The position numbers were made by a program, and so were the translations under genes. This document shows, piece by piece, positions 1,241 to 31,139 of a stretch of DNA of 31,139 nt. The notes under the pieces were generated by a model. That model worked only from the letters and a program-made list of their open reading frames with translations. It searched no databases and was not told the DNA's origin. The DNA lies in the IMG/VR virus record IMGVR_UViG_3300042301_001808, positions 1 to 31,139 of that record, one strand, 5' to 3'. The DNA is from a virus. Within the stretch, counting starts at the first letter, position 1. The number at the start of each line of letters is the position of its first letter.

Positions 1241-2845
1241 TTAGATAGTATTTAAACCAGCAATATATACTTTACCATAGTAGTCAGGACGGATCATCTT
1301 CTTAGCGTAACGAGTCATTAAACCTTTTCTTGGAGTGAAGGTATTAGGATCGTAAAGAAGTGGAGTCATGATTAATGGAACATATGGAGCAAATACGGCA
1401 CCACACTCTAAGAATTGAGCACCTTTGTAACCCATTAAGATTACGTTCTCAGTCATGTAAGGGTTTTTGTAAACCTTGTAACGACTATTTAAAGAACCAA
1501 CCTTTTGGATACCGAAGTTGAATTCAGATTTTTCACCATCACCATCAGAAGCAAATCCAGGGATTGATTCTAAGATAGTAGCTACAGAAGGAGAAGTTAC
1601 TAAGAAATTAGCACCACCTCTTAAAGTTAACTGATGAATTGTGTTTGATACTTTTTGTAATTTAGTACCTAAAGTTTGGAACCAACCACCTTGAGTGTTA
1701 AGGAAACCTAAATCTGCAGTAGTAACACCTGAAGCACCTACAGCTTGGTTGTTAATTGCTGACCAATATTCAGTTGTATAAGCGTTTTGGATTAACATAT
1801 CTAAGATCTCTAAATCAATCTCCATAGAGATGTATTGAGATAAGATACCAGTTAATTCAGCTTCAGCATCAACACTATGGTAAGCGTTAAGATCCTGAGC
1901 GAATTCTGGAGTCCATTGTGCTTTTAACTTACGAGTCTTAGCAACGATAGCTTCAGATTTTAACTGTACGTTAATTTCTGGGATAGCGATTGTAGTTGAA
2001 CTTTGTGCGTTTGGATAACCAGCACCTGATGCATCTTCGAAATCACCACGAGCAGCTGGAGTAGGTTGGATGTCATAGTACAATTGTACTGTTTGAGCAC
2101 CACCAGTTGTAGCAGCAACTAAAGAACCAGTTACAACGAAAGAAGCTGTGTTGTTAGATACAGTTGTAAATTGTTGTAAAATGTTTGCAACAGTGATAGA
2201 ACCTGAAGTAAATACGAATGAACGAACAGCGTTCAAATCAGCAGTTGCAGGTAATGGAACTAAGACAGTCTTATATTGATCAAAAGAAGCACTATAGTTA
2301 CTATCTAAGTTAAATGTAGCCCAACTAGTAGAACCAGTTAGAGAAGCAATTGAAGATGAGAATTGGTTGATTGAGTAACCAAATTTACCAGCACCGTAAA
2401 GTGATTGAGAGGTAATGTCAGTTACGTTTGTAGTTGCATTAGCACCATATAAAGATCCACCTGCAGTAAATGGTTTAACACCAGTACCGTATTTGAAATC
2501 AAGATAGAATACAAGACCTGAAGGTAAGTTCATTGGTTGTACACTAACGAATTCTTTAGCAGCGATTTCACCGAATACACGACGAACTAATGGTAAAGCT
2601 ACACCAGCCCAGTTTTCACTGTTGTATCCACCACCAGTCATGCTGTTGGTTCCACCAGTTACACTAGATTCAGTCATTAATTGTTTTGCTTGGTTTTCCA
2701 ATAGCATAGCCATTGTGTTTTTGTCTGTAGTAGATTTGATACCTTCTAAAAGGCCAGATTTTGCCCACTTTCCAGACAATCTTTTAGCATCTTCCATTAC
2801 TACTTTGTATTGGTTAGAGCTTTCTAATAATTGTTGTACGTTCAT
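1241..2845 (-). CDS. 23: Major capsid protein, T4 gp23-like
   Basis: The 534-residue product is close to T4 gp23 in length (521). Conserved stretches are visible: WAGVALPLVRRVFGEI and FVSVQPMNLPSGLVFYLDFK near residues 79-120, and a C-terminal region with TPRKGLMTRYAKKM. The N-terminal 59 residues look like a removable propeptide. LMTE at 56-59 is followed by SSVTGG, matching the place where T4 gp23 is cut by gp21 (FLTE before AEIGG). A Thr/Ser/Ala-rich region around residues 130-270 varies most between such proteins and probably forms the surface insertion. It follows the scaffold gene by 35 bases and is closed by a strong terminator, as expected for the most highly made virion protein. Confidence 0.95.
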   Translation of the reverse strand: MNVQQLLESSNQYKVVMEDAKRLSGKWAKSGLLEGIKSTTDKNTMAMLLENQAKQLMTESSVTGGTNSMTGGGYNSENWAGVALPLVRRVFGEIAAKEFVSVQPMNLPSGLVFYLDFKYGTGVKPFTAGGSLYGANATTNVTDITSQSLYGAGKFGYSINQFSSSIASLTGSTSWATFNLDSNYSASFDQYKTVLVPLPATADLNAVRSFVFTSGSITVANILQQFTTVSNNTASFVVTGSLVAATTGGAQTVQLYYDIQPTPAARGDFEDASGAGYPNAQSSTTIAIPEINVQLKSEAIVAKTRKLKAQWTPEFAQDLNAYHSVDAEAELTGILSQYISMEIDLEILDMLIQNAYTTEYWSAINNQAVGASGVTTADLGFLNTQGGWFQTLGTKLQKVSNTIHQLTLRGGANFLVTSPSVATILESIPGFASDGDGEKSEFNFGIQKVGSLNSRYKVYKNPYMTENVILMGYKGAQFLECGAVFAPYVPLIMTPLLYDPNTFTPRKGLMTRYAKKMIRPDYYGKVYIAGLNTI

Positions 2846-4382: not shown

Positions 4383-5000
4383 TTAACACAATGGACAAAC
4401 GCCAGTTGCATTACATATAATTTCAGTTATTAAACTATTTATTCTACTATAATCCTTAGATGGTTTATATTGTTTACCTTCAGCTAATGACATATACGCC
4501 TGTGGTGTACTAGGTACTGATACCAAATCCCAACATAATAATTCAAAATCATCTTGTACTTCAACTGTTTCACCTAGTTGTTTAACACTACCCATACCAC
4601 GTGATGATATACCAAGTGGAATATTAGATAATATTAATGCTTTAGCAATGTTGCCTGAAGGTGTTGGTAATAACTGTAATTTACCCATTAAATCGTTTCC
4701 TTCCCACCATACTTCTGTAATAACGTGAGATGTATTTGATAGGTTAACAACAGATGCTTCAGGGTGATCTAATTCACCTAGAGCAGTACGTGTTTTTACT
4801 GGTCCTTCCATATATTTTTGAACTTCTCTTTCAAGAATTTCACGAGGGTATACACGACCATTACCATTCTTTTGTTCAGCTTCTTGTAGTTTACCTACAA
4901 GAGTAACAAGAGATTTACCCTCGTTTAACTGTTTGTTTTCAACAATAGTTAAATTAGCTAATTGAGGGAGTGTATAATCTATTAATAATGTCTTATTCAT
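4383..5000 (-). CDS. 21: Prohead maturation protease, T4 gp21-like
   Basis: The 205-residue protein has the hallmarks of the T4 gp21 serine protease: the GELDHPE motif with candidate catalytic His79, and GISSRGMGSV with the candidate nucleophile Ser132 or Ser133. In T4 this enzyme acts inside the prohead, cutting scaffold, capsid and internal proteins after [L/I]-x-E and then destroying itself. Here QLNE at residues 24-27, followed by Gly, could be an auto-processing site. It lies one base downstream of the preceding head gene. Its presence gives meaning to the many [L/I/V]-x-E tags elsewhere in the window. Confidence 0.92.
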   Translation of the reverse strand: MNKTLLIDYTLPQLANLTIVENKQLNEGKSLVTLVGKLQEAEQKNGNGRVYPREILEREVQKYMEGPVKTRTALGELDHPEASVVNLSNTSHVITEVWWEGNDLMGKLQLLPTPSGNIAKALILSNIPLGISSRGMGSVKQLGETVEVQDDFELLCWDLVSVPSTPQAYMSLAEGKQYKPSKDYSRINSLITEIICNATGVCPLC

Positions 5001-13444: not shown

Positions 13445-14437
13445 TTATTTTATAATTCCTGCACGGTATTTTAATTGTTCCATAAACCATTCATCAATTG
13501 GCTCTTCTGGTTTTTCTTTAGCCTGATTTGCTTTGGCTTGACGTTTTTGCAAATATTCTGATCCTGCTATTAGATCATTTATTCTTTGCTCTAATGAGGC
13601 TTTTAAATCTATCAAACGTTGTAATTCAGATGATGGTTTATCTTTGAAATCACCAGCTACATTTTTTGATCTTCTTGCTTTAAATATATCACTTTTTACT
13701 TTATTTAAACGTGCTTCTAAATCAGATACTTTCATGAAGTTTTGATAATCTTCATCAGGTATTCCAAGATCAGATGTTTTGCTTACTATTGGTTCTTCTT
13801 CACCGGATTGTTTCATTTTAGCAAACATTGCGTCTACTTCTTCATCACTCATATCACCTACGATAAAGTCAAATTCATCGCTTGTTTCTTCTTCTTCATC
13901 ATCCTCTTCATCATCAGCTACATCGCTCGGTACATCTCCGAAACCACCAATATCTCTTTTCTTTATAGTTACGGGTTTAATAGGAGTAAAATCATCAGCG
14001 GCTGCTCGTGGTGCTTTTTGTTCCTCAGCAGCTACAATTACACCTCTAGCTACCAATTCCATAAAATCTGAGTTTACTGGCTGTTGTTTGTTATATCCTA
14101 ACTCATATGCTAAGTCTATTTTAGAAATAGGCTCATCAATCTCTTTCATTTTACTTACGATACGATTTTTCTTACCAGTAAATTTTCCGGGATCAACATC
14201 AGGAGCTAATTCATAACGTAATGCTACGTTAGCTAATTCATCTAATTTATCTTCAGATACTACTGATGTTCTACCTGATGATAGGTCTGATTTTTTAGCG
14301 TTTAATGCCGTTATTTGTTTATTAATAGAATTTAATTCTGCATCTTTAGCTGCTTTCTCTTGGGGAGTTATTTCAGCTTCGTTCACTACTTCATTTATAG
14401 CTTTACGTATAATTTGTCTTAATTCAGATTTTTTCAT
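13445..14437 (-). CDS. Acidic protein with capsid-targeting-like N-terminus, function unknown
   Basis: I start it at the ATG at 14435-14437; the longer frame reading adds an unlikely hydrophobic leader and covers the ATATTTATA element. The 330-residue product begins MKKSELRQIIRKAINEVVNE, an amphipathic helix with two overlapping [I/V]-N-E sites. The centre has a Glu/Asp run (about 175-190) and the helix-rich C-terminal third is a probable coiled coil. It ends QLKYRAGIIK, a loose match to the RWKMLAGITKF end of the gp22-like scaffold. Together these features suggest a prohead core or internal protein. No enzymatic motif is visible. Confidence 0.7.
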   Translation of the reverse strand: MKKSELRQIIRKAINEVVNEAEITPQEKAAKDAELNSINKQITALNAKKSDLSSGRTSVVSEDKLDELANVALRYELAPDVDPGKFTGKKNRIVSKMKEIDEPISKIDLAYELGYNKQQPVNSDFMELVARGVIVAAEEQKAPRAAADDFTPIKPVTIKKRDIGGFGDVPSDVADDEEDDEEEETSDEFDFIVGDMSDEEVDAMFAKMKQSGEEEPIVSKTSDLGIPDEDYQNFMKVSDLEARLNKVKSDIFKARRSKNVAGDFKDKPSSELQRLIDLKASLEQRINDLIAGSEYLQKRQAKANQAKEKPEEPIDEWFMEQLKYRAGIIK

Positions 14438-17213: not shown

Positions 17214-17663
17214 TTACACTTCATCATCCATTTCGAAATCAGCTAAGATATCATCAACACTCTTTGTAGCTTTATTAGTTCCACCCATAGAGCTTCCAGC
17301 TGTGTACCCAGCTCTACTAGCAAATCCAAGTTCTTCTACTGTGTTAAAGAATTTATTAACATCCGGTTGTTTTTTACCTAATAAATTAGCATAGTCTATC
17401 TTTTGTACTCTTTTACCATCTTTTTTAGCATTGTATAAGAATTTTAAAATTTCAAGATGATTAATTCCGATACCCATAGGTAAGGAACCACCAGCTTTTA
17501 AACTTCTTAATAATGATTCACCTTCAGGAGTGATAGTGTAGGCACCACCCGTACCTGCTGTACGAGCCATTTCGTCCATTTCTTCAGCTTCGTTGAACTG
17601 AGATTCGTTAATCATACCAGCTAATAGCTGTAATCTTCTTGTTTCGATTATTTGTTTTTTCAT
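17214..17663 (-). CDS. Tagged small protein, possibly winged-helix
   Basis: A 149-residue protein starting MKKQIIETRRLQLLAGMINE, which contains the LAGI-type tag and ends in INE, a prohead-protease consensus site. The core (about 70-115: LEILKFLYNAKKDGKRV, then NKFFNTVEELGFASR) looks like a small helical DNA-binding domain of winged-helix type, but this is a weak reading. The end is acidic (DDILADFEMDDEV). The gene is followed by a strong terminator and lies 14 bases after another gene with the same kind of tag. A packaged, DNA-associated internal protein is my best guess. Confidence 0.65.
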   Translation of the reverse strand: MKKQIIETRRLQLLAGMINESQFNEAEEMDEMARTAGTGGAYTITPEGESLLRSLKAGGSLPMGIGINHLEILKFLYNAKKDGKRVQKIDYANLLGKKQPDVNKFFNTVEELGFASRAGYTAGSSMGGTNKATKSVDDILADFEMDDEV

Positions 17664-17677
17664 TTTGGGTTTTTATT

Positions 17678-18112
17678 TTATTGTACTTTGTAAACGTTGT
17701 TTCCTATTTTTAAATTATTAATTGTGCTAACATTAATCATTCTATATCCTGAATCACTACCGCTTTTTGCTTTAGGATCCCATACTGGTATTAATCCTTT
17801 AGCTTCTGGGTTGTATGGTAGTTCTCCACCTTTAAGATAAGCTTTAACTCCTAAACGAGCATTCATTACACGTGTTGTACCATCTTTTTTAGTAAATGTT
17901 ACAGTGAAGAATTTACCTTTAGTATTTTTAATTAATTCCTTAGCTTTATCTTTTGATATAGTACCAGATGGTTCTTCAGGAGTACTAGCGTCGCTGTCAG
18001 GCTTTACTTCATCCGGTATTTCAGAATCAGGCACGGCTTGTTCATCCTCGTCTGCTTCTTTTAAAATACCAGCTAGTTTTTGCCAACGTTTAGCCTCTTT
18101 TATTAAATACAT
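17678..18112 (-). CDS. Tagged small protein with SH3-like barrel domain
   Basis: The 144-residue product begins MYLIKEAKRWQKLAGILKEA: the RWxxLAGI tag followed by LKE before Ala, matching the protease consensus. An acidic linker (20-50) leads to a beta-rich domain: KGKFFTVTFTKKDGTTRVMN, then ARLGVKAYLKGG and a YRMINV strand near the end. I know this domain from phage proteins, and it resembles those described as SH3-like barrels; its function is unknown. It starts the short unit ended by the terminator at 17157-17192. Confidence 0.7.
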   Translation of the reverse strand: MYLIKEAKRWQKLAGILKEADEDEQAVPDSEIPDEVKPDSDASTPEEPSGTISKDKAKELIKNTKGKFFTVTFTKKDGTTRVMNARLGVKAYLKGGELPYNPEAKGLIPVWDPKAKSGSDSGYRMINVSTINNLKIGNNVYKVQ

Positions 18113-19171: not shown

Positions 19172-19807
19172 TTATTTAAAATCCTCCATGTAAAACAATA
19201 TGTATGTTGAAAATTCAGAACCATATCCTAAAGTAGCATCTTCAGCACTAGGATCATCAACAGTAAAATCATCAATGTTTTCTTTTAGAAAATCTTGGTT
19301 TATTTTTTCAAATTCTTCTCTATCTTCTTCATCATCAATACCTTCAAAAGCGTATTCTCTTAATAAAGCGATATATTTTTTACTAAGTATAAATTTAGAA
19401 TCAATACATTTAGTAACATAACATATATTACCGGGTCCTGAGAAATAGTCCATCATTCTAACATTTTCTACATCATCAGCCCAAAATGTTATTTTACGTT
19501 GTGGTTTATAATTGTAAAGAGAAGTAGTAATATATGTTTTGTTTCCATACCAATCAGATAAATTGGTTTGTTTTATATTATTATTATCAATACAATCTTT
19601 AATAAAATCATATGTTTTATCACTAATTGGGGTACCTCTGTATAGATGTCGTCCTACAGGAGGTTGTAATAGGGGATTAGATGATTTATATTTTTCTATT
19701 TTTTTAATAAAATTATATACTCTATTGTAGTCTATATCTGTTGTCCAGTCATGTCCTAGTAATGGAGCTAAAGTATTTGTTATAGTTTTAATAGAAATTT
19801 TTTCCAT
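19172..19807 (-). CDS. ADP-ribosyltransferase-like protein (R-S-E type)
   Basis: The 211-residue product shows the three landmarks of arginine-type mono-ADP-ribosyltransferases in order: LYRGTPIS with Arg57, YITTSLYNY with the STS-like Thr-Thr-Ser at 94-96, and GYGSEFSTYILF with Glu198 in the last strand. T4 Alt, ModA and ModB use this fold to modify host RNA polymerase, ribosomal and other proteins. The target here is unknown. The glutamate motif shows only one of the usual two acidic residues (SEF, not ExE), so activity or residue specificity is uncertain. Unlike its neighbours it has no clear capsid tag (MEKISIKTITNTLA). It lies 10 bases after the gene at 19818. Confidence 0.65.
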   Translation of the reverse strand: MEKISIKTITNTLAPLLGHDWTTDIDYNRVYNFIKKIEKYKSSNPLLQPPVGRHLYRGTPISDKTYDFIKDCIDNNNIKQTNLSDWYGNKTYITTSLYNYKPQRKITFWADDVENVRMMDYFSGPGNICYVTKCIDSKFILSKKYIALLREYAFEGIDDEEDREEFEKINQDFLKENIDDFTVDDPSAEDATLGYGSEFSTYILFYMEDFK

Positions 19808-20383: not shown

Positions 20384-21517
20384 TTATTTTTTAGCTTGAC
20401 CTTTCCACATAGCAGCAGCTGCTATTTTTTTTCCTTTTTCACCACCACCCGCAGCAGCAGCTACTTTTTCAAATCCTTTACCTTTTTTACCTATATCTTT
20501 ACCAGCACGAGCTTTTGTAGCTACAGCTGACTTTTCCTTTTTAGTCATACCAGCAGATGGCTTTTTCTTCTTAGCTTTAGCTTCTCTTATGAAGTCACTC
20601 CAGCTTAAACCTCTAGAAGATAAAGATCCACTATTCCAATCTTGTTCATCGTAGTAAGTAGTAATCCAATCTGCTATATCGCTTTCAAGTTTTGCATCAT
20701 TATTTTCATAGTCAGTGTATTTAAATTCACCTAATATAGCATCAATTATATCTTTAGCTTCTCTAGGAGTTACATCACTCTCACCAACATTAAGATTATC
20801 ATTTACATACTTTTCAACTTTATCTTCAAAGTCATATTGACATTCTTCACATCCAAGATTTTCTCTCATTTGTGGTTTTAATGTTTTAACAGATATAATC
20901 TTATTTCCATCTGGGAATTTTACATATATCTTTGCTCCTTCTTTAGCTTGAGTTACAGGAGATACTGGATCTACTTTAGTTATGGTTCCAGTGCCATATT
21001 TTTTATGGTGAAATTTTTGATCTACTCTATAATCTGTTTTAGGAGTGTAATCGTATTCTTCTCCGTAATCTTTAGATTTAGCGCTGTGTTGTCTTCCTTT
21101 ATCTCCTCTTACTTCTTCTAATTCTTCTTTAGGTTTTTTATCTTTTTTAGTAGGTTTAACAGGAGCCTTTTCAATTAAACCAACCATTTCTTTAATCTTT
21201 TCAGTTTCAGAAGCAACTTTACCTTCAACTTCAGAAATTTGGTTATCTAACATTTCAGATAATTTGGCGTGTGCTACTTTAATTTTTTCTAACTCATTAA
21301 CAAACTTTTGCATATGAGCATATTCAGCTACAAATGATGATGGGTTTTCTCCATTTTCGTTAATAGCATATTGGCCTAAAGATTCTTTCATTTTTCTTAA
21401 GCCATTTAATTCTTTTTTAAGGTGTACTAATTTACCACCACTTTTAGGTAAACCACCTTCTTTTTTAACTTCTAGTATTACTTGGCGAATAACTTCGCGT
21501 ACTTCTGATAAATTCAT
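20384..21517 (-). CDS. Tagged basic protein with Tudor-like domain
   Basis: The 377-residue product begins MNLSEVREVIRQVILEVKKE with ILE at the tag end. Residues 30-125 are a coiled coil. A segment near 163-207 (FHHKKYGTGTITKVDP, then KIYVKFPDGNKIISVKTLKP) resembles the Tudor-like domain at the C-terminus of UvrD/PcrA helicases, which binds RNA polymerase or nucleic acid. The C-terminal 55 residues are Lys/Ala/Gly-rich (GKDIGKKGKGFEKVAAAAGG), like a histone tail. A protein packed with DNA in the head, or a host RNA polymerase binder, would both fit; neither is shown. It ends three bases before the next tagged gene. Confidence 0.68.
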   Translation of the reverse strand: MNLSEVREVIRQVILEVKKEGGLPKSGGKLVHLKKELNGLRKMKESLGQYAINENGENPSSFVAEYAHMQKFVNELEKIKVAHAKLSEMLDNQISEVEGKVASETEKIKEMVGLIEKAPVKPTKKDKKPKEELEEVRGDKGRQHSAKSKDYGEEYDYTPKTDYRVDQKFHHKKYGTGTITKVDPVSPVTQAKEGAKIYVKFPDGNKIISVKTLKPQMRENLGCEECQYDFEDKVEKYVNDNLNVGESDVTPREAKDIIDAILGEFKYTDYENNDAKLESDIADWITTYYDEQDWNSGSLSSRGLSWSDFIREAKAKKKKPSAGMTKKEKSAVATKARAGKDIGKKGKGFEKVAAAAGGGEKGKKIAAAAMWKGQAKK

Positions 21518-21733: not shown

Positions 21734-22171
21734 TTACCATTTTTTACAAGACCAATAATTAGCTTTCCATCTTGGTCCTGGGTTATCACAATTATGTCTT
21801 TTACGATATGCACTGCGGCGTTTTGGGTTGTTTACTTTGATGTTCATTCTTTTACCCTTAGCTGATTTTCCACCAAAACCAAAGTTAACTTTTACAACCT
21901 TACCCTTATTATTCTTAACATATACCTTAAACTTTTTAACATCACCTTGCATTGGTTTACCTAGTGTAACTTTACGGCCGTGATACTCAGCTTCAAGTAA
22001 ACAAGGGCAATCAGCTTCCGCTAATACTTGTTTATAATCACGCATAAATTGAATGAATTCCTTAAGATCTTGTTCATTTTCAACATCATATTCATCAACT
22101 TCATCTTCATTAGTATAAAGTGTTTCTATAATAGCTTTTTTAACTAACTGTCTTAATTCTGTTATTTTCAT
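21734..22171 (-). CDS. Tagged basic protein with C-terminal His/Cys motif
   Basis: The 145-residue protein starts MKITELRQLVKKAIIETLYT, with IIE closing the tag. After an acidic linker comes a basic domain: YHGRKVTLGKPMQGDVKKFK, VKVNFGFGGKSAKGKRMNIK, then RKRHNCDNPGPRWKA and YWSCKKW at the end. I recognise this C-terminal pattern from many marine-phage proteins of unknown function; the His and two Cys could bind metal. The strong positive charge fits contact with packaged DNA. Confidence 0.72.
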   Translation of the reverse strand: MKITELRQLVKKAIIETLYTNEDEVDEYDVENEQDLKEFIQFMRDYKQVLAEADCPCLLEAEYHGRKVTLGKPMQGDVKKFKVYVKNNKGKVVKVNFGFGGKSAKGKRMNIKVNNPKRRSAYRKRHNCDNPGPRWKANYWSCKKW

Positions 22172-22174
22172 AAT

Positions 22175-22591
22175 TTATTTGTTAAACTTTACTTTTGCTT
22201 TATCAGTATTAGGTACAAATTGTTTACCTTTTTTAGATCCAGCTACTTTTTTACGAGATGTTGCAGCGCGTTCTGCTTTAGTTAAGCTATTTGCTTTAGC
22301 ACGAGGTAAACAACGAGTTGTTGCTTTACCTTTTTTCATTGTACCACATGGACCAGCAATATTACCTTGTGTATCTATACGAACCCAATCTTCTTTTTTA
22401 AACCAATCACGAAGTGATTCATCTAAATCATCTTCTTTCATTAATCCTTTACATACTTTAGTAGCACGACCAGAAAGATAAGCTGATGGTTTTTCACCCG
22501 CTGCTCTACGACGATTATAATAAGCTTTACCTTTCTTACACAGTTTTTTTTCAGCTATTATATCTTGTAATATTTCGGTTAGTTTAATCAT
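22175..22591 (-). CDS. Tagged basic protein, DUF5872-like C-terminus
   Basis: The 138-residue product starts MIKLTEILQDIIAE, a short tag ending IAE. It continues with two segments I know from phage genomes: CKKGKAYYNRRRAAGEKPSA followed by YLSGRATKVCKG, and SLRDWFKKEDWVRIDTQG followed by GPCGTMKKGKATTRCLPRAK. The second resembles the small domain DUF5872. Four Cys are spread over both parts. Net charge is strongly positive. It lies three bases before the start of the next tagged gene. Confidence 0.72.
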   Translation of the reverse strand: MIKLTEILQDIIAEKKLCKKGKAYYNRRRAAGEKPSAYLSGRATKVCKGLMKEDDLDESLRDWFKKEDWVRIDTQGNIAGPCGTMKKGKATTRCLPRAKANSLTKAERAATSRKKVAGSKKGKQFVPNTDKAKVKFNK

Positions 22592-22597
22592 TTTTAT

Positions 22598-22828
22598 TTA
22601 TTTTTCATGCCACCAATTACAACAATATTCATCTGCCGGATATGGTATTTCTTCGTTATTATCATGCCATTTTAACCAATATTTGTTATTACATATATTG
22701 CCTTTATCTTCATGATACTCACAATTAGCACACATTGAACCACCTTTAGTTACACGCATTCCCGGTTGATGGTTTGATGGGTACTCTGCTGGTCCTTCTA
22801 CAATTAGAAATTCTGATAATTTAATCAT
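22598..22828 (-). CDS. Tagged small cysteine-rich protein
   Basis: The 76-residue product begins MIKLSEFLIVEGPAEYPSN; IVE before Gly is a near-ideal match to the T4 prohead protease site. The rest contains CANCEYHEDKGNICNNKYW and YPADEYCCNWWHEK, giving five Cys and several His and Trp. This looks like a small metal-binding or iron-sulfur knuckle, though I do not know its function. Its ATG overlaps the stop of the preceding membrane-protein gene (ATGA, 22825-22828). Confidence 0.72.
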   Translation of the reverse strand: MIKLSEFLIVEGPAEYPSNHQPGMRVTKGGSMCANCEYHEDKGNICNNKYWLKWHDNNEEIPYPADEYCCNWWHEK

Positions 22829-23731: not shown

Positions 23732-25930
23732 CTATTTTTGTTTTGTATGTTGATAACCTGCTTCTATATTTTCAAAGTCATCTTTATAATTTTCTAATAC
23801 CATTACGTCAGCCGGGATCGGGTTAGTAATACTAAATGTTTCGTCTTCTAACTGTGAGCTTAATTTATCCATAAACTCTGGTTTAAAGAATAATTCAGCA
23901 TTTTTAGCTTTGGCTCTCATTATTACCGGTACTCCTCCTTTTGTTTCCGCTGTAGACGCAGCAAATGTAGCAGCATTATTATAATTAATACTCCATGATT
24001 GTACTTTACGTCTAGAAGAATACATTTGATTCATTATTATAATACCTTGATCATATGTTTTAGTGTATGGTTCTGTTTTAGCTCCATACATTAGTTCGTT
24101 TAGTTTTTCTTTAGGTATTGATGTTCCTCTATAGATGTAAGTTTCACCATTTAGTTTAGGATCTGCTATTTCAGGATAGTCTTTTTTTAATATTTTAAGT
24201 ATAGGAATTAAATGATCTAAATTAATAGTACCATAAATATCTGCTGTAGAGCTTGCATATTTTTTTAATAGTTTAAACAATGCATGTTCAGCTAGCGTAT
24301 CTTCTTCTTTTTCATTGTCATACCATAATATTGATACTCCCGATTCTTTATCTCCAAATAAATAATTTCCATACACTCCTTCTCTTAATAATACTTCGTA
24401 TATGTCTTTATTTTGTTTACCAAAATCTCTTAACAATATTCCTGCTTGAGCGTTTGCTTCATTTTCAATTTCAGAACCAGTTTCACCACTTGTATTATCT
24501 ATCTTACCATCTTCATCTTGCTTACGATGAACTAATTCATGAGCTAATGTTCTTAAAATATCAGCCATATTTCTATTAGCACAATAGATCCATATTTTAT
24601 TATTATTTGGATCAAAATAACCAAAGCTACTCATATCTTTAGCTTTGTTATTATCGTATGATAGTGTTAAGTTACGTGGAGGTTTTTGTATTCCCAAATT
24701 CTTAATAGCGTATTTAACAAACTCACCAATAGTAGCCGTTTGGCTTTCGTTTAGTTTATTATTGTGTTTTAGATTTTCTTTTAGTAGATTTAATTTGCCT
24801 ATTTCACTTCTATATCTATCTGCTATTTTTTTAACACCTTCATAGTATTTTCTAGCACAACTAATGTTGTCTACTCTATATGATGTTATTTTAAAATCAC
24901 TTAATATTTCTTCTTTACTTCTTTTATCTTCTGTTGTATCAATATGAAGAAGTATTAACTTTGTAAATGAGTCATATCCTTTATTAATTTCTTCTGGGTT
25001 GATTAATTGTTGCTGTCCAATTATCCTTTGATGATTATGGTATTCTTTGTTTTTTATTACTTCTGCCTTAAACTGATATACTTGTATTTTCCCACTTAAT
25101 ATATCATCAATAATTTTACTACTTTTTTCTGCATTATAGAATTCATAAATATCACTACAGTTTTTCTCAACCGTTGTAGTATACCTATTTAATATACTAT
25201 TATATTTATCTCTAACGTCATATTCCGCTTTTTCTTTTGAGTCTGCATCTACAGGTTTAATTATATTTTTTAGAAATTTTAATTTTGGTTGTTCAGGATA
25301 AGCTTTTACTAATTCATCCCAATTCTCAAAATATTCTTCTCCTCCTTTATTATTAGCTTTTGTTACTGAGTATGACATTTCACGGTCCTCATAGATGAAT
25401 ATTACAAGTAAATGATAGTCGTCTATAAATTTTCCATTTTCATCCTTTTTAGAAGATTTAGTATCGTCAAATATAAAATAAGGTGTTCCTTTTTCCTCAT
25501 ATCTATAACTTGTATACATTTCTTCTCCTTCTCCTCCTCGAGCAGATATACAAAATGAATATCCATTACCATATTTGATACAGGCTTTACGGTCTTTACC
25601 AACATATACTCTTAATTCATTTTGATTATAAACCAAATCAGCATTTTCTGGTTCACCATCATTTATTTTACCTGCTTTAATACGTTTTGGTTGATTAGAA
25701 TTAATAATATTTTCTAATTCTTTCCAACTATATTTAGTAATATCTTTATTAGATATTTTAGGACTACTTTTAATTTGATCAAAACGATTGATATATGCTT
25801 TGATAACGTCTGTTTCTAAACTAGGTTCTTCTTGCTTAAATTTGTCTACTAATGTATTAACTACTTTATTAGAGTATTCATCAAGATCTAATACTTCTTT
25901 CCACCAACCAACAGTAAAATTATTGTTCAT
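23732..25930 (-). CDS. Zinc metalloprotease / ADP-ribosyltransferase fusion
   Basis: From the ATG at 25928-25930 the product has 732 residues. A longer frame start adds a hydrophobic leader read from the AT-rich gap and is unlikely. Part 1 (1-390) is a helical region plus a domain with KACIKYGNGYSFCISARG (Cys117, Cys127). Part 2 (about 396-516) is a zincin-like domain: TLAHELVHRKQ, with HExxH at His464-His468 and a likely third ligand among Glu487-Glu491 (SEIENEANAQ). Part 3 (about 530-732) is an ADP-ribosyltransferase: YIYRGTS with Arg601, QSWSINYNNAATFA with Ser645/Ser647, and QLEDETF giving Glu695-Asp-Glu697, the full R-S-ExE set. LNE (ends 395) and LRE (ends 517) flank the zincin part and could be prohead-protease sites. 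Substrates are unknown. Confidence 0.78.
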   Translation of the reverse strand: MNNNFTVGWWKEVLDLDEYSNKVVNTLVDKFKQEEPSLETDVIKAYINRFDQIKSSPKISNKDITKYSWKELENIINSNQPKRIKAGKINDGEPENADLVYNQNELRVYVGKDRKACIKYGNGYSFCISARGGEGEEMYTSYRYEEKGTPYFIFDDTKSSKKDENGKFIDDYHLLVIFIYEDREMSYSVTKANNKGGEEYFENWDELVKAYPEQPKLKFLKNIIKPVDADSKEKAEYDVRDKYNSILNRYTTTVEKNCSDIYEFYNAEKSSKIIDDILSGKIQVYQFKAEVIKNKEYHNHQRIIGQQQLINPEEINKGYDSFTKLILLHIDTTEDKRSKEEILSDFKITSYRVDNISCARKYYEGVKKIADRYRSEIGKLNLLKENLKHNNKLNESQTATIGEFVKYAIKNLGIQKPPRNLTLSYDNNKAKDMSSFGYFDPNNNKIWIYCANRNMADILRTLAHELVHRKQDEDGKIDNTSGETGSEIENEANAQAGILLRDFGKQNKDIYEVLLREGVYGNYLFGDKESGVSILWYDNEKEEDTLAEHALFKLLKKYASSTADIYGTINLDHLIPILKILKKDYPEIADPKLNGETYIYRGTSIPKEKLNELMYGAKTEPYTKTYDQGIIIMNQMYSSRRKVQSWSINYNNAATFAASTAETKGGVPVIMRAKAKNAELFFKPEFMDKLSSQLEDETFSITNPIPADVMVLENYKDDFENIEAGYQHTKQK

Positions 25931-25949
25931 GTTTAAATATAATATATAA

Positions 25950-25984
25950 ATAAAAATAGGCGGTTTGAACAAGTCAAACCACCT
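25950..25984 (-). terminator. Rho-independent terminator before the protease/ART gene
   Basis: Minus strand AGGTGGTTTGA and TCAAACCGCCT pair with one A/C mismatch around a 5-base loop, followed by ATTTTTA. It closes the primase and nuclease unit. Confidence 0.85.
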
Positions 25985-26008: not shown

Positions 26009-26794
26009 TTATTGTTGTACTTTAATAGATGTAGGTAATAATTCCGTAATAGGTTCGTGTTCTGGGTTTTCTAATTTGTATATTTCATATATATTTTTAA
26101 ACATATTAAAGTTCTTTTCAATGTCACTTATCACTTTTAGCTCCCATCCTTTACCTTGTATTTTACCTTTTTTACCTTCACCACGAGTAGATGCTTTTAA
26201 CCATAATATTCCCGTTTCTTCGACATGTTGATCATGTGTTTCGTTCCAGGCTTTAGCATATGACGCTAACTGTAAATCATATGATGTGTGTAGTGAATTT
26301 GATGTTTTAATGTCTAGTAACCATATTTTATCATTTAATTTAACAATCAAATCTGCTGTTCCAGCATATTGGTGTTCATCTGAGAATAAATGATATTCTG
26401 CCGCTATTAACTCTGGTTTATGTGTGTTCCAAAATTCAGCAAATTTTAATATCATTTTCCAAACATCTAAATTATATTTGACATTTCCATAATCATCAAT
26501 CCAATTTATTTCTTCTCCATTTATAAAGGCCTCTACAGCATTGTGTACTTGTGTACCTTCGGCCGCTGCCTTAGACGCTATTATCTCAGCATTATGTCCT
26601 ACATCTTTCAACCAGTTATGGAAAAATTGGTTTTTTGGGAAATAATTTAATATTGTGCTCACAGATGGATAATATTTACCATTACGTCTATAGAAACGTT
26701 GGTCCAATACATTTATCTGTTTGTTGTCCTCACTATATTCTACAATACGTTTGATTTTAGAATCTTTAATGATGTTTGTGTTTTTTTCTATCAT
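26009..26794 (-). CDS. PD-(D/E)XK nuclease, RecB/Cas4-like
   Basis: The 261-residue protein carries the RecB-type nuclease core in order: EGTQVHNAVEAF with His84, Glu133 in AAEYHLFS, Asp148 in AGTADLI, Asp161-x-Lys163 in WLLDIKTSN, and the downstream Gln175 and Tyr179 in YDLQLASYAKAW. Residues 1-60 resemble the N-terminal part of phage exonucleases of this group (YPSVSTILNYFP). It probably degrades or trims DNA ends in recombination or replication. It is translationally coupled to the primase gene through a four-base overlap (26791-26794). Confidence 0.88.
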   Translation of the reverse strand: MIEKNTNIIKDSKIKRIVEYSEDNKQINVLDQRFYRRNGKYYPSVSTILNYFPKNQFFHNWLKDVGHNAEIIASKAAAEGTQVHNAVEAFINGEEINWIDDYGNVKYNLDVWKMILKFAEFWNTHKPELIAAEYHLFSDEHQYAGTADLIVKLNDKIWLLDIKTSNSLHTSYDLQLASYAKAWNETHDQHVEETGILWLKASTRGEGKKGKIQGKGWELKVISDIEKNFNMFKNIYEIYKLENPEHEPITELLPTSIKVQQ

Positions 26795-27732
26795 AATAGT
26801 TGTAATTTTTTCTCAAGCAAGCTATGGAAGGTTAGTGGCTGTGTTTGTTCAATTGTATTTAAAAATGCTTCAAATCCTATTTCATTAGCATCTTTACCAT
26901 CCATTTCTACCATATATACTTCTTTACCATATGACATTAATTTTTCAGCTTGTTTAAGTGCATCTTTTCTAGCATCTTTATCTAAGGCAATATAGATACG
27001 ATTAACAGAAGATTCAACTAGTCTTTTCATTAATTTATCATGTAGTACTTTACCAAACAATGGTATAACATTTCGTTTGATAGTTAATGCATCGAATATA
27101 CCTTCAACAAGTATTATAGGTGCATCCCAATTTATATATAGTTCCCAACCAATAGCGTCTTTAGCAGCTACTGGAGGGTTTTTATATTTGCGATCTGAGT
27201 CATCATAGGCTCTGGCTATAAAATAGTTTAGTGATTTATTGTTATCATATGAGGGAATAATAACTCTGTTATTGTAAGGTCCGTCTTTGCAAAAACCAAT
27301 ATTATATTTTATAATATCATCTTGAGTAATACCTCGTTTCTTTAATGATATAAGAGCATGTTTTGCTTCAATTTGTGTTAGTTTGTCTAAACTATCAATA
27401 CGGGATAGGGAAATAAATTCTTTTGGTAATTCTAAAACACTATTTTCAGTGTGTTTTTCGTATTTAGATGGAACTATTAATATATTTAGTTCAGCTATCT
27501 TATCGGATGGTGCTTTAATTTTTTTAAATAAAGACAACAATGTTTTACCCTTAACACCACATATCCAGCAGTGCCAAAAGTTTTCACGTTTATCCGTTGT
27601 TCGTAAATTAATTTCTAATTTATTCTTATGATGTGAACAGAAGGGACATTTAAAGGCATAATTACCTTTACTTGTGGATTGTCCTTTATCTAATACCGAT
27701 TCAACTAGAAACAATAAAGCTGCATTATCCAT
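26791..27732 (-). CDS. DNA primase with zinc finger and TOPRIM domain
   Basis: The 313-residue protein has an N-terminal zinc finger, KCPFCSHHKNK (Cys29, Cys32) and FWHCWICGVKGK (Cys55, Cys58), and a TOPRIM domain with Glu210 and Asp214 in ILVEGIFDAL and Asp251-x-Asp253 in IYIALDKDARK. Size and layout match T4 gp61, the primase of the T4 primosome, which lays RNA primers for lagging-strand synthesis. No helicase domain is fused, so a separate gp41-like helicase is expected elsewhere in the genome. It forms a coupled pair with the PD-(D/E)XK nuclease. Confidence 0.88.
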   Translation of the reverse strand: MDNAALLFLVESVLDKGQSTSKGNYAFKCPFCSHHKNKLEINLRTTDKRENFWHCWICGVKGKTLLSLFKKIKAPSDKIAELNILIVPSKYEKHTENSVLELPKEFISLSRIDSLDKLTQIEAKHALISLKKRGITQDDIIKYNIGFCKDGPYNNRVIIPSYDNNKSLNYFIARAYDDSDRKYKNPPVAAKDAIGWELYINWDAPIILVEGIFDALTIKRNVIPLFGKVLHDKLMKRLVESSVNRIYIALDKDARKDALKQAEKLMSYGKEVYMVEMDGKDANEIGFEAFLNTIEQTQPLTFHSLLEKKLQLL

Positions 27733-27749
27733 ACAATGAATGTATGTTT

Positions 27750-28202
27750 TTATTCGGCCTCTAACAAATCTTTTCTGAAGAATGTACCTAATATATTATC
27801 ATTCATAAACCTATCATCTTCTAACACATTATATTCAAACAAACATTTTGTTTCCCAATATGTTAGTTGTTTAGATGTTTTACATAACCTTATTAAATAG
27901 CGTTTTAGTTCGTTATGAGGTAGTTGTTTAACCTCTTCTGACGAACCATAATATGTTTTCCAGTTGCTCTCTGTAATAACTTTTTTCTTAGTTGGTCTGC
28001 GGCCTCTAGTAACAGGTATAGCTGCTAATTCTTTTTTACCTAATTTTTTATTTTGGCTACTAAAGAATTGTTTTTTACCAATATACAATTTGTTGGTTGG
28101 AATATGTACTGTTAAATAAACATAACCAAACCATTCGTTTATATTGAAATTAGGATCGTTTATCATATCCTCTATTTCAATTTTACTTATAGTTTCTATC
28201 AT
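27750..28202 (-). CDS. GIY-YIG nuclease
   Basis: The 150-residue protein has the GIY-YIG fold signature with GYVYLTV (26-32) and LYIGKK (39-44), a later TYYGSS (84-88 region) and Glu117 in YWETK as the likely metal-binding residue. The end RFMNDNILG is typical of phage members of this group. Such enzymes are stand-alone homing nucleases or host-DNA/repair nucleases. No intron or extra DNA-binding domain is seen next to it, so I do not call it a homing endonuclease. It lies 17 bases before the primase gene. Confidence 0.8.
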   Translation of the reverse strand: MIETISKIEIEDMINDPNFNINEWFGYVYLTVHIPTNKLYIGKKQFFSSQNKKLGKKELAAIPVTRGRRPTKKKVITESNWKTYYGSSEEVKQLPHNELKRYLIRLCKTSKQLTYWETKCLFEYNVLEDDRFMNDNILGTFFRKDLLEAE

Positions 28203-28214
28203 AACTTGTTTTTA

Positions 28215-28862
28215 TTAGAAATCAAATAATTTTAAATTTCCTTGTTTATCATAACCTAAATTTTCAAATGAAAAATCAAATCCTAGTCCTATTTTTGAAT
28301 TTACTAAGTTTATAAAATCTATCCATTTTTTATAAACATTGTATAAATGACTAGACTCTTTCTTAAAAACAGACATTATGAATTTTACATCTTGATCATT
28401 ACCCTCCATAATACCCCATCTAGTTATATTTATAAAATCAATAATACCAGATTTCTGTATTATTGGCCAGAATGTTTTATCCTTATCTTCCAACCTATCA
28501 CCATACCATGTGTCTCCAACAAAAAATGATCTATTATTATAATATTCAGGATTATCTTCAAAAATTTTATTCATTTCTTCATTTTCTCTTACTAATCTCT
28601 TAGCATCTACCTTTTCAATAACTAAATATCCTTTTTCTTCATTATATTTGTATACTTTAACAAATATATCTGGGTTTTCTATCATTATAGCCATACGATC
28701 ATCCCATGATTTCTCGGCATTACCCCAAGTTGGATATCTATGACTCGTAATTACCTTGTCGGGCTGAGTTTCAAAATCATAAACTGTAGACTCAGTTCCT
28801 GATCCCAGCTCTTGTTTTTTTCTAATACTTATTTCGTTTAATAAATCAATTAATTTAATCAT
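28215..28862 (-). CDS. Tagged protein-kinase-like protein
   Basis: The 215-residue product starts MIKLIDLLNEISIRKKQ: a tag ending LNE. Then comes a kinase-like N-lobe: LGSGTESTVYDF (19-30) as glycine loop and Lys36 in PDKVI as the likely lysine. Near the end, GFDFSFENLGYDKQGNLKLFDF has Asp196 and Asn201 of the catalytic loop, and FDF in place of DFG. The protein stops right there, so it lacks the usual activation segment and most of the C-lobe. This resembles small phage kinase-like proteins of the Rio/ABC1 style. Targets are unknown. The tag suggests it is packed in the head and delivered to the new host cell. Confidence 0.65.
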   Translation of the reverse strand: MIKLIDLLNEISIRKKQELGSGTESTVYDFETQPDKVITSHRYPTWGNAEKSWDDRMAIMIENPDIFVKVYKYNEEKGYLVIEKVDAKRLVRENEEMNKIFEDNPEYYNNRSFFVGDTWYGDRLEDKDKTFWPIIQKSGIIDFINITRWGIMEGNDQDVKFIMSVFKKESSHLYNVYKKWIDFINLVNSKIGLGFDFSFENLGYDKQGNLKLFDF

Positions 28863-28867
28863 TATAT
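28843..28867. repeat. 25-bp direct repeat spanning a start codon, copy 1
   Basis: Identical to 29314-29338. It covers the ATG, the MIKLID codons and the five bases upstream of the kinase-like gene. Confidence 0.95.
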
Positions 28868-28916
28868 GGTATATTTTTTTTCTTTAATAAAGATTCAATA
28901 TTAGGATTAAATTTAT

Positions 28917-29333
28917 TTAAACATTTTCAATATTAATGAAATATTTAGGATCTAAGTAACCTTCTCTATTAGACAATATTCTTTCTTCAAAAAATTCCGT
29001 AAATTTAGAAATAACAGGTGTTCCTTCTTCTTCAAACTCATCTTTATTCCATACGTTTTCTACATTAATGGGTTCAATTTTATATCTTTCAGATATTTTA
29101 TTTCCATCTAATGTAATCCTAACATTTAAATCTTTATAATCTAGATATTTAAATAAACCTTTTCCACTTTTATCTCTAGTAGCAGCAATATAAAATTGAT
29201 TTGGATAAAGTCCTGAATTGTCTGGTTCAAATTTTATACCTTTTTCTTTTATGCTATTAAGAAAGGAACTATTTGTAAAATGGTATAGTATCCCTACTTG
29301 TTTAGCTTCTATTAAATCAATTAATTTAATCAT
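28917..29333 (-). CDS. Tagged ADP-ribosyltransferase-like protein (small, H-Y-E type)
   Basis: The 138-residue protein begins MIKLIDLIEAKQVGILYHFT. The tag MIKLIDLIE is followed by Ala, a good prohead-protease site, and the domain then starts with YHFTNSSFLNSIKEKGIKFE. Landmarks resembling the DarT/KptA branch of the ADP-ribosyltransferase fold are His18, NQFYIAATRD (Tyr48, Arg53) and a final FEERIL (Glu116 or Glu117) before YLDPKYFINI. DarT modifies DNA and KptA modifies RNA; the substrate here cannot be told from sequence. Homology is by pattern only. The start is coupled to the upstream structural gene by TAATG (29331-29335). Confidence 0.6.
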   Translation of the reverse strand: MIKLIDLIEAKQVGILYHFTNSSFLNSIKEKGIKFEPDNSGLYPNQFYIAATRDKSGKGLFKYLDYKDLNVRITLDGNKISERYKIEPINVENVWNKDEFEEEGTPVISKFTEFFEERILSNREGYLDPKYFINIENV

Positions 29334-29338
29334 TATAT
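29314..29338. repeat. 25-bp direct repeat spanning a start codon, copy 2
   Basis: Identical to 28843-28867; covers the ATG and MIKLID codons of the ADP-ribosyltransferase-like gene. Confidence 0.95.
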
Positions 29339-29644
29339 ATCATATTTAACTACAAACGTCATATCTGTATTAGGTGACATCATAATTGGTTTACCAAGTT
29401 TAGCAACAGCTAATAATTCATTTTCGTCATTATATAACCCAATAGTAGTAGCATATACATAAAAATCAGAACCAGTAGCAAAGTCTTTTAAAATACCATT
29501 ACTGTAGCTACCTGATACTAATGTTGGATTGTAAGATAAATTATAATCGCTCTCCAATACTAAACAACGAACCTCATTTTCGTATATAGTATGTTCGTTT
29601 TTAAATATTACTGCGAAAGAACCTGAATGTATTATTGCTGGCAT
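29333..29644 (-). CDS. Small virion structural protein
   Basis: The 103-residue protein is beta-rich and ends TTIGLYNDENELLAVAKLGK followed by PIMMSPNTDMTFVVKYDI. This end motif is one I know from tail or baseplate-associated proteins in phages of Bacteroidetes and other aquatic hosts, including proteins encoded beside fibre genes. Its location next to two Pro-Thr-repeat proteins supports a tail or adhesion role. Start is the ATG at 29642-29644, three bases after an ATATTTATA element. Confidence 0.6.
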   Translation of the reverse strand: MPAIIHSGSFAVIFKNEHTIYENEVRCLVLESDYNLSYNPTLVSGSYSNGILKDFATGSDFYVYATTIGLYNDENELLAVAKLGKPIMMSPNTDMTFVVKYDI

Positions 29645-29661: not shown

Positions 29662-30633
29662 TTAACATGATCCGTCTAATCCTGTTATATAAACAGGGTT
29701 AGTATTATTTACAGCTACGTTAGTAAATGTATAGGTTCCGTTACCAGTAAATGAAGTACAAGGGTACGAGCTTCCATTACTATCTGTTAATAATATACGT
29801 TCAGTACTAACATAACCACTTAAACTTAAAACAATAGTACAGAAAGGTCCACTTTCACTAGTAGTAAATACATTTAAAGCACCACTTGAGAATGGAAAAT
29901 CGTTTCCAGCATAATTAGTAACTGACGTTCCGTTTACCGTAGCTCCCGTAACTGTCATACTTAATGCTCCCGACCAATCAAAGTATAAGTAATTGTTTGG
30001 GTCTAGTGTCGGCGTAGGCGTTGGTGTTGGTGTCGGTGTTGGCGTCGGCGTCGGTGTCGGTGTAGGTGTAGGTGTTGGCGTTTCTGTTGGCGTAGGCGTA
30101 GGCGTTAAAGTAGGCGTAGGCGTAGGTGTTGGCGTTTCTGTTGGCGTAGGCGTAGGCGTAGGCGTAGGCGTAGGCGTAGGCGTAGGCGTAGACGTAGGCG
30201 TTGGCGTCGGTGTTGGCGTCGGTGTTGGCGTTAAAGTAGGTGTTGGCGTAGGCGTTTCTGTCGGCGTCGGTGTAGGCGTAGGCGTAGGCGTTTCTGTTGG
30301 TGTTGGCGTTGGTGTTAACGTTGGTGTCGGTGTTGGCGTCGGTGTTAGTGTCGGTGTAGGTGTTAACGTTGGCGTCGGTGTAGGCGTTAACGTTGGCGTC
30401 GGTGTAGGCGTTGGCGTCGGTACTCCTGTTATAGGTAAAATAAGAGAATTAGTACAACTTCCTATTGATGTTATTGTTACTTGAGTAGCAGTATCATCCA
30501 CTACTACTCCTAAACTAGATAATAATTCAGATACAGTTGCCGTGTTGGGGTTTACAACACCAACATCTGCTGTTAATGTAAAGGGTCCTAAATCTACCCC
30601 CAGTCCTGAATTAAGTGTTAATAATACATTCAT
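29662..30633 (-). CDS. Fibre-like protein with long Pro-Thr repeat linker
   Basis: The 323-residue protein has three parts. Residues 1-70 are a small beta-rich domain ([20 protein letters not shown], with [18 protein letters not shown] at its end). Residues about 72-209 are a (Pro-Thr)n repeat interrupted by Leu, Glu and one Ser, which will be extended and flexible. Residues 210-323 are a second beta domain ([20 protein letters not shown], several Thr/Ser-rich strands, two Cys near the end). Such proteins in aquatic phages are taken to be tail-fibre or head-decoration adhesins with a stalk. There is no signal peptide. The exact role is inferred. Confidence 0.65.
30007..30420. repeat. Hexanucleotide repeat encoding (Pro-Thr)n
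   Basis: About 414 bases of CCN-ACN units on the coding (minus) strand, seen as GGNGTN on the plus strand. Third codon positions vary through all four bases along the array. TTA (Leu), GAA (Glu) and TCT-type (Ser) codons interrupt it at intervals. Confidence 0.95.
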
Positions 30634-30654: not shown

Positions 30655-31139
30655 TTAATTGTGTCTAACATCTATAGTTATAGATGTTTTACTAGTTAAA
30701 TCAACAGATAAACTTAATGTAAAGCTTGTACCTTGTGGAGTAAGGTAATTAGTTGATGTTGTAGATCCACCTGGTGACGTTGTAGCATCAAAGTTGTATA
30801 TTAGTGATGGGTTAGCATTATTCATTGATACAGATATACTTTGTACCCCACTCTGTAATACACCTGATGAATTATACATGTTGCCTGGTGTTATTGATAT
30901 TGTTCCACTACCAATACTTCCTACTATTACCTCAGTTACATCTCCAGTAGTACATGAATTTGTTAAATTTATGCTAAGAGAAGATGGTGTAGGCGTTGGG
31001 GTTGGTGTAGGCGTTGGCGTTATAGTTGGCGTTGGCGTAGGTGTTAGCGTCGGCGTCGGAGTTGGCGTCGGTGTAGGTGTAGGTGTTGGCGTCGGCGTTG
31101 GTGTTAATGTCGGCGTAGGAGTTGGTGTCAACGTTGGCG
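30655..31139 (-). CDS. Second Pro-Thr-repeat fibre-like protein, 5' end outside the window
   Basis: The frame is open to the right edge and no ATG is present; the only in-window start-type codon near the edge is TTG at 31129-31131, which lies inside the repeat and is read as Leu. The visible part has a (Pro-Thr)n stretch with Leu and Ile interruptions, then a 105-residue beta-rich domain: SSLSINLTNSCTTGDVTEVI, VGSIGSGTISITPGN and a last strand SKTSITIDVRHN. This C-terminal domain does not obviously match that of the neighbour, so the two share the stalk rather than the tip. They are 21 bases apart and form one unit. Confidence 0.65.
   Translation of the reverse strand, partial: PTLTPTPTPTLTPTPTPTPTPTPTPTPTPTLTPTPTPTITPTPTPTPTPTPSSLSINLTNSCTTGDVTEVIVGSIGSGTISITPGNMYNSSGVLQSGVQSISVSMNNANPSLIYNFDATTSPGGSTTSTNYLTPQGTSFTLSLSVDLTSKTSITIDVRHN
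30985..31139. repeat. Hexanucleotide repeat encoding (Pro-Thr)n, second array, cut by the edge
   Basis: Same GGNGTN plus-strand unit as 30007-30420, separated from it by 564 bases of unique sequence. It continues to the window edge. Confidence 0.95.

Follow-up and report, generated by a model that had tools for sequence, protein, structure and literature searches.

Two adjacent genes of a T4-like phage, with unrelated bodies, begin with the same DNA across their start codons and first codons. This raises the question of whether the shared segment is a piece of DNA that recombination moves from gene to gene, or only the trace of a peptide kept alike by selection in an AT-rich genome. The original prediction favoured the former, and proposed that recombination at the segment would give a new gene both its start site and its packaging signal. 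We examined the question in the whole stretch of DNA (31,139 nucleotides, here the window), in relatives carrying the same site, and in tagged genes gathered from other phages.

Gene layout of the cargo site

The 31-kb window, a virus record, belongs to a T4-like phage, as judged by its gp23-type capsid and gp21-type protease genes (Table 1). Its major capsid protein was 61% identical to the counterpart in Flavobacterium phage immuto, and the hosts of phages of this type are probably Bacteroidota. On the minus strand a small flank gene is followed by a gene for an ADP-ribosyltransferase (ART)-fold protein, a kinase-like gene, the GIY-YIG gene and the putative primase/helicase gene, with the ART and kinase-like genes occupying a cargo site bounded by a conserved tail-type gene on one side and the GIY-YIG gene on the other. 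Long runs of Thr-Pro repeats (TPTPTP) were present at 29999-30420 and 30980-31139, in two tail-type proteins adjoining the site.

Table 1. Features of the window discussed in the text
Feature	Position	Strand	Remarks
Major capsid protein, T4 gp23 family	1241-2845	-	Places the phage near Flavobacterium phage immuto
Prohead protease, T4 gp21 family	4383-5000	-	Peptidase_S77, E 5e-31; PHROG 207 head maturation protease, E 2e-52
Further gene of the same tag class	22175-22591	-	MIKLTEILQDIIAE, then KK
Further gene of the same tag class	22598-22828	-	MIKLSEFLIVE, then GPA
Putative primase/helicase-like gene	26791-27732	-	Name read from sequence
GIY-YIG (SegE-like) gene	27750-28202	-	Pfam PF19835, E 5e-24; closes the cargo site on the side away from the flank gene
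Protein-kinase-like gene, tagged, 215 aa	28215-28862	-	MIKLIDLLNE, then ISI; without counterpart in close relatives L001-L004
26-bp segment, copy 1, kinase-like gene start	28842-28867	-	5 leader bases, ATG, MIKLIDL codons
Spacer ahead of kinase-like gene, 54 bp	28863-28916	-	Last 14 bases: 11/14 match the end of gene 29333-29644
ART-fold gene (predicted), tagged, 138 aa	28917-29333	-	MIKLIDLIE, then AKQVG; 96% aa conserved in L001-L004
26-bp segment, copy 2, ART-like gene start	29313-29338	-	Direct reading and search
Conserved small flank gene	29333-29644	-	Ends ..NTDMTFVVKYDI*; last codons form the ART leader

A likely capsid-targeting tag

An IMG/VR scan for MIKLIDL-coding starts yielded, among the matches listed, many unrelated bodies headed by this N-terminus. 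This short peptide was common to 324 distinct tagged genes from many body families, and N-termini of the form MIKLxx[LI][LI] were found on 302 distinct proteins in all the loci gathered. Glutamate stood at residue 10 in 247 of these 302, and 41 more had a [LIVMF]xE motif ending at residue 9; a cleavage motif at residues 6-14 was present in 98% of tagged proteins, compared with 11-16% at control positions. Complete or large genomes contained suites of such tags with varied residues. The T4 prohead protease follows the cleavage rule L/I-x-E, and the T4 capsid-targeting signal (CTS) has about 10 residues (PMC9026906, PMC7697877); the CTS has been suggested to let T4-like phages package varied proteins (PMC9026906). 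Given the glutamate at residue 10 or the motif ending at residue 9, and a gp21-family protease gene in the window, the tag fits both the T4 rule and the CTS length. The MIKLIDL segment is likely the start of a tag of the T4 internal-protein type, which would direct the protein into the capsid and then be removed, presumably by the gp21-family protease encoded in the window. Like the CTS of T4 IPI-III and Alt, it comprises about 10 N-terminal residues on otherwise unrelated small proteins, has an L/I-x-E end and occurs with a gp21-family protease, but it reads MIKLxxLLxE and heads putative ART-fold and kinase-like cargo in phages of probably Bacteroidota hosts. The likeness is one of motif and length, and 10 residues are too few for a claim of homology.

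Other N-terminal classes were seen alongside this one. A second, [RK]xQxLAG[IL][ILM]xE, lay near the N-terminus of putative products of 17214-17663 and 17678-18112 (RLQLLAGMINE, RWQKLAGILKE) and of proteins in relatives; pairs of this class (RMQxLAGLLTE) were too few in number for a test. A third, longer and amphipathic class (MKKSELRQIIRKAINEV type), which may serve head core proteins, was present at 13445-14437, 20384-21517 and 21734-22171. In five other loci (L064, L082, L102, L104 and G020), tagged paralogues with leucine-rich-repeat-like bodies (MIKLIDLLENKI..LPQGL) formed arrays of up to eight.

The two bodies

The original prediction described the two bodies as unrelated, and this held: one is modelled as an ART fold and the other is protein-kinase-like. 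The structure model of the ART gene product (pLDDT 76) had Tpt1/KptA and DarT1 as its top Foldseek matches (probability up to 1.00, TM about 0.49, E 5e-3), and two members of its family matched Tox-ART-HYD1 (best E 0.001), so that the predicted fold of the 28917-29333 product is that of an ADP-ribosyltransferase. This protein had no match in the phage collection, and the kinase-like protein, used as a single query, had none in either IMG/VR or the phage collection; Pfam and PHROGs gave nothing significant for either tagged protein. ART-type readings with YRGT.. motifs and no MIKL tag may also be made at 19172-19807 and at the C-terminus of 23732-25972, for which Pfam and PHROGs gave no firm match.

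The kinase-like family comprised 15 homologues. A profile of 12 members searched against the PDB had almost exclusively protein kinases as its top matches, all weak (best E 0.002), with the Gly-loop, Lys, catalytic-loop Asn and DF motifs visible in the alignments; the structure model (pLDDT 52) was too poor for a fold search. The tag was present in all members except the type found in L207 and L358; at its position 7, 13 of the 15 had Ile and one further member had Leu, as did the window gene and its ART neighbour. Elsewhere, an ART-like domain with its tag was fused to a kinase-like one in a single 353-aa ORF (L361:5503-6564), with what is left of the kinase tag, LKELNIQ, at their joint, and three consecutive tagged genes (L362:4909-6585) were kinase-like, ART-like and kinase-like. 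At a contig end (L319:6614-7267) an apparent kinase-like N-lobe continued into class III nucleotide cyclase-like sequence, a join that is possibly an assembly chimera.

The 26-bp identity

Identical DNA across the two start codons was confirmed at a length of 26 bases rather than the 25 first reported: by direct reading and by search, both copies read 5'-ATATAATGATTAAATTAATTGATTTA-3' on the minus strand, comprising the leader ATATA, the ATG and the IKLIDL codons. The identity is bounded at 28868 upstream (G vs A) and 28841 downstream (A vs T); past three upstream mismatches, six further leader bases (AAATAT) agree. No third copy with up to 3 mismatches was found in the window, and none in 100 shuffles. 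The "leader" of the ART gene is itself coding, since it is the end of the upstream flank gene (..KYDI*, with a TAATG overlap, ..GAT ATA TAA TG), and the kinase-like leader, AAATATACCATATA, resembles that end, AAATATGATATATA.

The simplest alternative to recombination is convergence at the protein level only, in which the same peptide in the commonest AT-rich codons behind an AT-rich leader gave 26 identical bases by chance. Codon bias in this AT-rich genome gave a 1.7% chance of identical codons for the same seven residues, which makes the coding part, taken by itself, no more than a mild surprise. Of 5,226 unlinked pairs whose first seven residues agree and whose bodies are unrelated, 158 shared all 21 nt. 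Convergence is also in keeping with the finding, given below, that tag DNA diverges like that of the bodies. However, while at least 11 of 14 leader bases were shared in 49 of these unlinked pairs, codon and leader identity like that of the window pair occurred together in only 3 of the 5,226. Convergence likewise leaves unexplained a systematic excess of sharing in neighbouring genes that is absent from distant genes of the same locus, and we consider it an unlikely account. For the window pair, the likeliest cause of the identity is local copying of leader, start codon and tag.

The neighbour excess was seen in 158 neighbouring tagged pairs with unrelated bodies, in which codon identity at shared residues was.628 against.536 expected, compared with.538 against.535 for distant pairs of the same locus. 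Bootstrapping over loci placed the excess at.058-.126 (.042-.115 with long runs removed), and at -.037 to.040 for the distant pairs. Runs of at least 26 bp were found in 5/158 neighbour pairs vs 44/50,052 unlinked pairs, making them about 36 times commoner (p 5e-7), and the excess persisted without the window pair (p 1.6e-5). Among the longest was a 44-bp direct repeat in L016 that includes 13 leader bases, with both genes ART-like, and a 42-bp repeat in L263, in which ATGATTAAACTAA follows the final 29 flank bases and which stands ahead of both an ART gene and a gene unrelated to it. The build of the window pair is like the latter, with the kinase-like leader resembling the end of the upstream gene. 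Leader identity as such showed no general excess in neighbours of the complete-genome set. We conclude that neighbouring tagged genes with unrelated bodies share leader, start and tag DNA beyond codon bias, and to this extent the idea of recombination at the tag stands; part of the excess could reflect old tandem duplicates whose bodies have diverged beyond recognition, as in the G005/L016 pair, where both are ART-like.

A further alternative is that a whole tagged gene was duplicated in tandem and that one of the two bodies was then replaced or diverged to an extreme degree. This is very unlikely for the window pair: several neighbour pairs are both ART-like (L016) or obvious paralogues (G020), and L362 has its kinase-ART-kinase row, but the window bodies differ in predicted fold and both families occur elsewhere as separate cassettes.

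A shared leader, AATATTTATA, was considered as part of a mobile unit and rejected; pairs sharing it were discounted because the element precedes tagged and untagged genes alike. The ATATTTAT element is strand-specific and lies 12 or 22-29 nt before the ATG in 12-19% of genes, compared with 0.7% for its reverse complement, and is possibly a promoter of this phage group. Read in reverse complement, it is similar to the T4 late promoter TATAAATA.

Tag DNA and body DNA in homologues

If tag DNA were conserved as such, homologous genes should retain it better than their bodies. In 1,733 homologous pairs of tagged genes, binned by divergence class, tag and body codon identities in order of falling class were.863/.877,.692/.733,.654/.702,.644/.666,.581/.590 and.550/.559, so that tag identity was equal to or just below that of the body in every class, and no extra synonymous conservation of tag DNA was found. 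Selection on the peptide, in this reading, keeps the tags alike, and at the DNA level they change at the same pace as the bodies. Such divergence is largely the outcome that the original prediction had named as speaking against it.

Gene exchange behind fixed flanks

The same conclusion emerged from sites where different phages carry unrelated bodies behind the same upstream DNA. Identity there was.873 over positions -10 to -1 and fell within the tag; for untagged genes it was.746. In one pair of phages (L220, ART; L320, kinase-like) the only gene that differs between identical neighbours is the tagged one, and its tag codons differ too. At the window's own site, the flank end ..NTDMTFVVKYD[I/T]* is constant and the next gene varies: it is the ART gene in the window and L219, other tagged genes in L364, L303, L310 and L043, and in L207 and L358 a kinase-like gene fused to the flank with loss of the first (5') half of its tag, while in L195 the cargo gene is absent. 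Between L219 and L364 the 16 bases before the ATG are identical and both tag DNA and body differ; L364 also has the kinase-like gene at the same site, with a different tagged gene ahead of it. The joint with the flank in L207 and L358 looks like a microhomology junction inside the tag.

Since the swapped genes each carry their own tag DNA, the unit exchanged is the ATG with tag and body, not a resident tag receiving a new body. Whole cassettes of this kind are exchanged at fixed sites, and their left junction falls on the start codon or immediately behind it. Swaps, counted pairwise after single-linkage body families (F0) proved to have merged unrelated genes, occurred at 21/47 tag-gene flanks vs 27/214 other flanks (p 3e-6; p values are approximate, given a sampling that focused on tagged genes and an uneven relatedness).

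These data bear directly on the original model, in which recombination within a conserved, resident tag routinely supplies new bodies with a start site and packaging signal. Consistent with it, swap junctions lie at the start codon, direct repeats end inside the tag in L263 and L289, and the junction in L207 and L358 falls inside the kinase-like tag. On the other hand, orthologous sites have a near-identical flank with different tag DNA as well as a different body, genes without a tag likewise exchange at start codons, if less frequently, and one leader type shared by L289, L035 and L207 is explained by the general ATATTTAT element. Tag codons in same-flank swaps were.61 and.75 identical vs a background of.52 and.60, a slight excess with wide intervals from 14 independent flanks. 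The related claim that new genes gain a start and tag in this way finds some support in that tag-gene sites swap more often; in the window, by contrast, the kinase-like gene has its own spacer, and in the relatives that keep the ART gene and lack the kinase-like gene (L001-L004) homology breaks off some 11 bp beyond the ART stop codon instead of at the tag. Routine supply from a resident tag therefore seems improbable to us.

Proposed history and significance

We favour a reading, at a probability of roughly 0.7, in which a CTS-like tag is kept at the protein level, whole cassettes are exchanged, and copying between neighbours occurs occasionally and is the likeliest cause of the 26-bp identity. 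Selection on the peptide would maintain the tags while their DNA drifts with the gene, and different phages would fill a cargo site with different ready-tagged genes, exchanged as ATG, tag and body. Neighbours would now and then gain the same leader end, start codon and tag by local recombination, perhaps unequal exchange or gene conversion. In the window, the end of the upstream gene and the ART tag may have been copied ahead of the kinase-like gene. Polarising the window tag with family tags gave no signal; the kinase-like tag was equally near to other ART tags (20.8 of 27 nt) and other kinase-like tags (20.6), and tag distances thus lend no support to either direction.

A bolder proposal, which we hold only tentatively, is that the start codon and tag act as a plug-in joint, at which recombination in imperfect ATGATWAAAYTW.. 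repeats, present in every tagged gene, swaps, duplicates, deletes and fuses genes for injected proteins in frame. If true, the packaging signal would be kept through exchange, and tag homology itself would raise cargo turnover.

In T4-type phages, Arbiol et al. (2010) reportedly described mobile promoter cassettes and proposed their short repeated 5' segments as recombination sites that shuffle accessory genes. The tagged genes resemble these in their short repeated 5' segments; those cassettes, however, consist of intergenic early promoters and stem-loops, whereas here the repeat spans the start codon and coding tag. Recombination near the shared 5' segment of T-even internal-protein genes is said to have been discussed by Repoila et al. 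(1994). The T-even internal proteins are described as many different genes with a common N-terminal signal at two variable loci (PMC12373910, which cites Repoila et al. 1994). The cargo sites studied here are alike in holding varied genes with such a signal in variable loci, but at these sites the flank stays and the tag DNA changes along with the body.

Some of the proteins that phages inject disable the defences of the host, and the tagged genes bear on the question of how a gene comes to belong to the injected set. With its recognisable tag and orthologous cargo sites with different occupants, this phage group offers a large natural data set in which upkeep at the protein level can be told from DNA copying. 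The data suggest that cargo genes change hands with their tags already attached, that turnover at cargo sites exceeds that elsewhere several-fold, and that neighbours occasionally acquire tag DNA from one another by copying. With the tag as a marker, sequence is enough to compile a list of candidate injected proteins, including ART and kinase-like ones.
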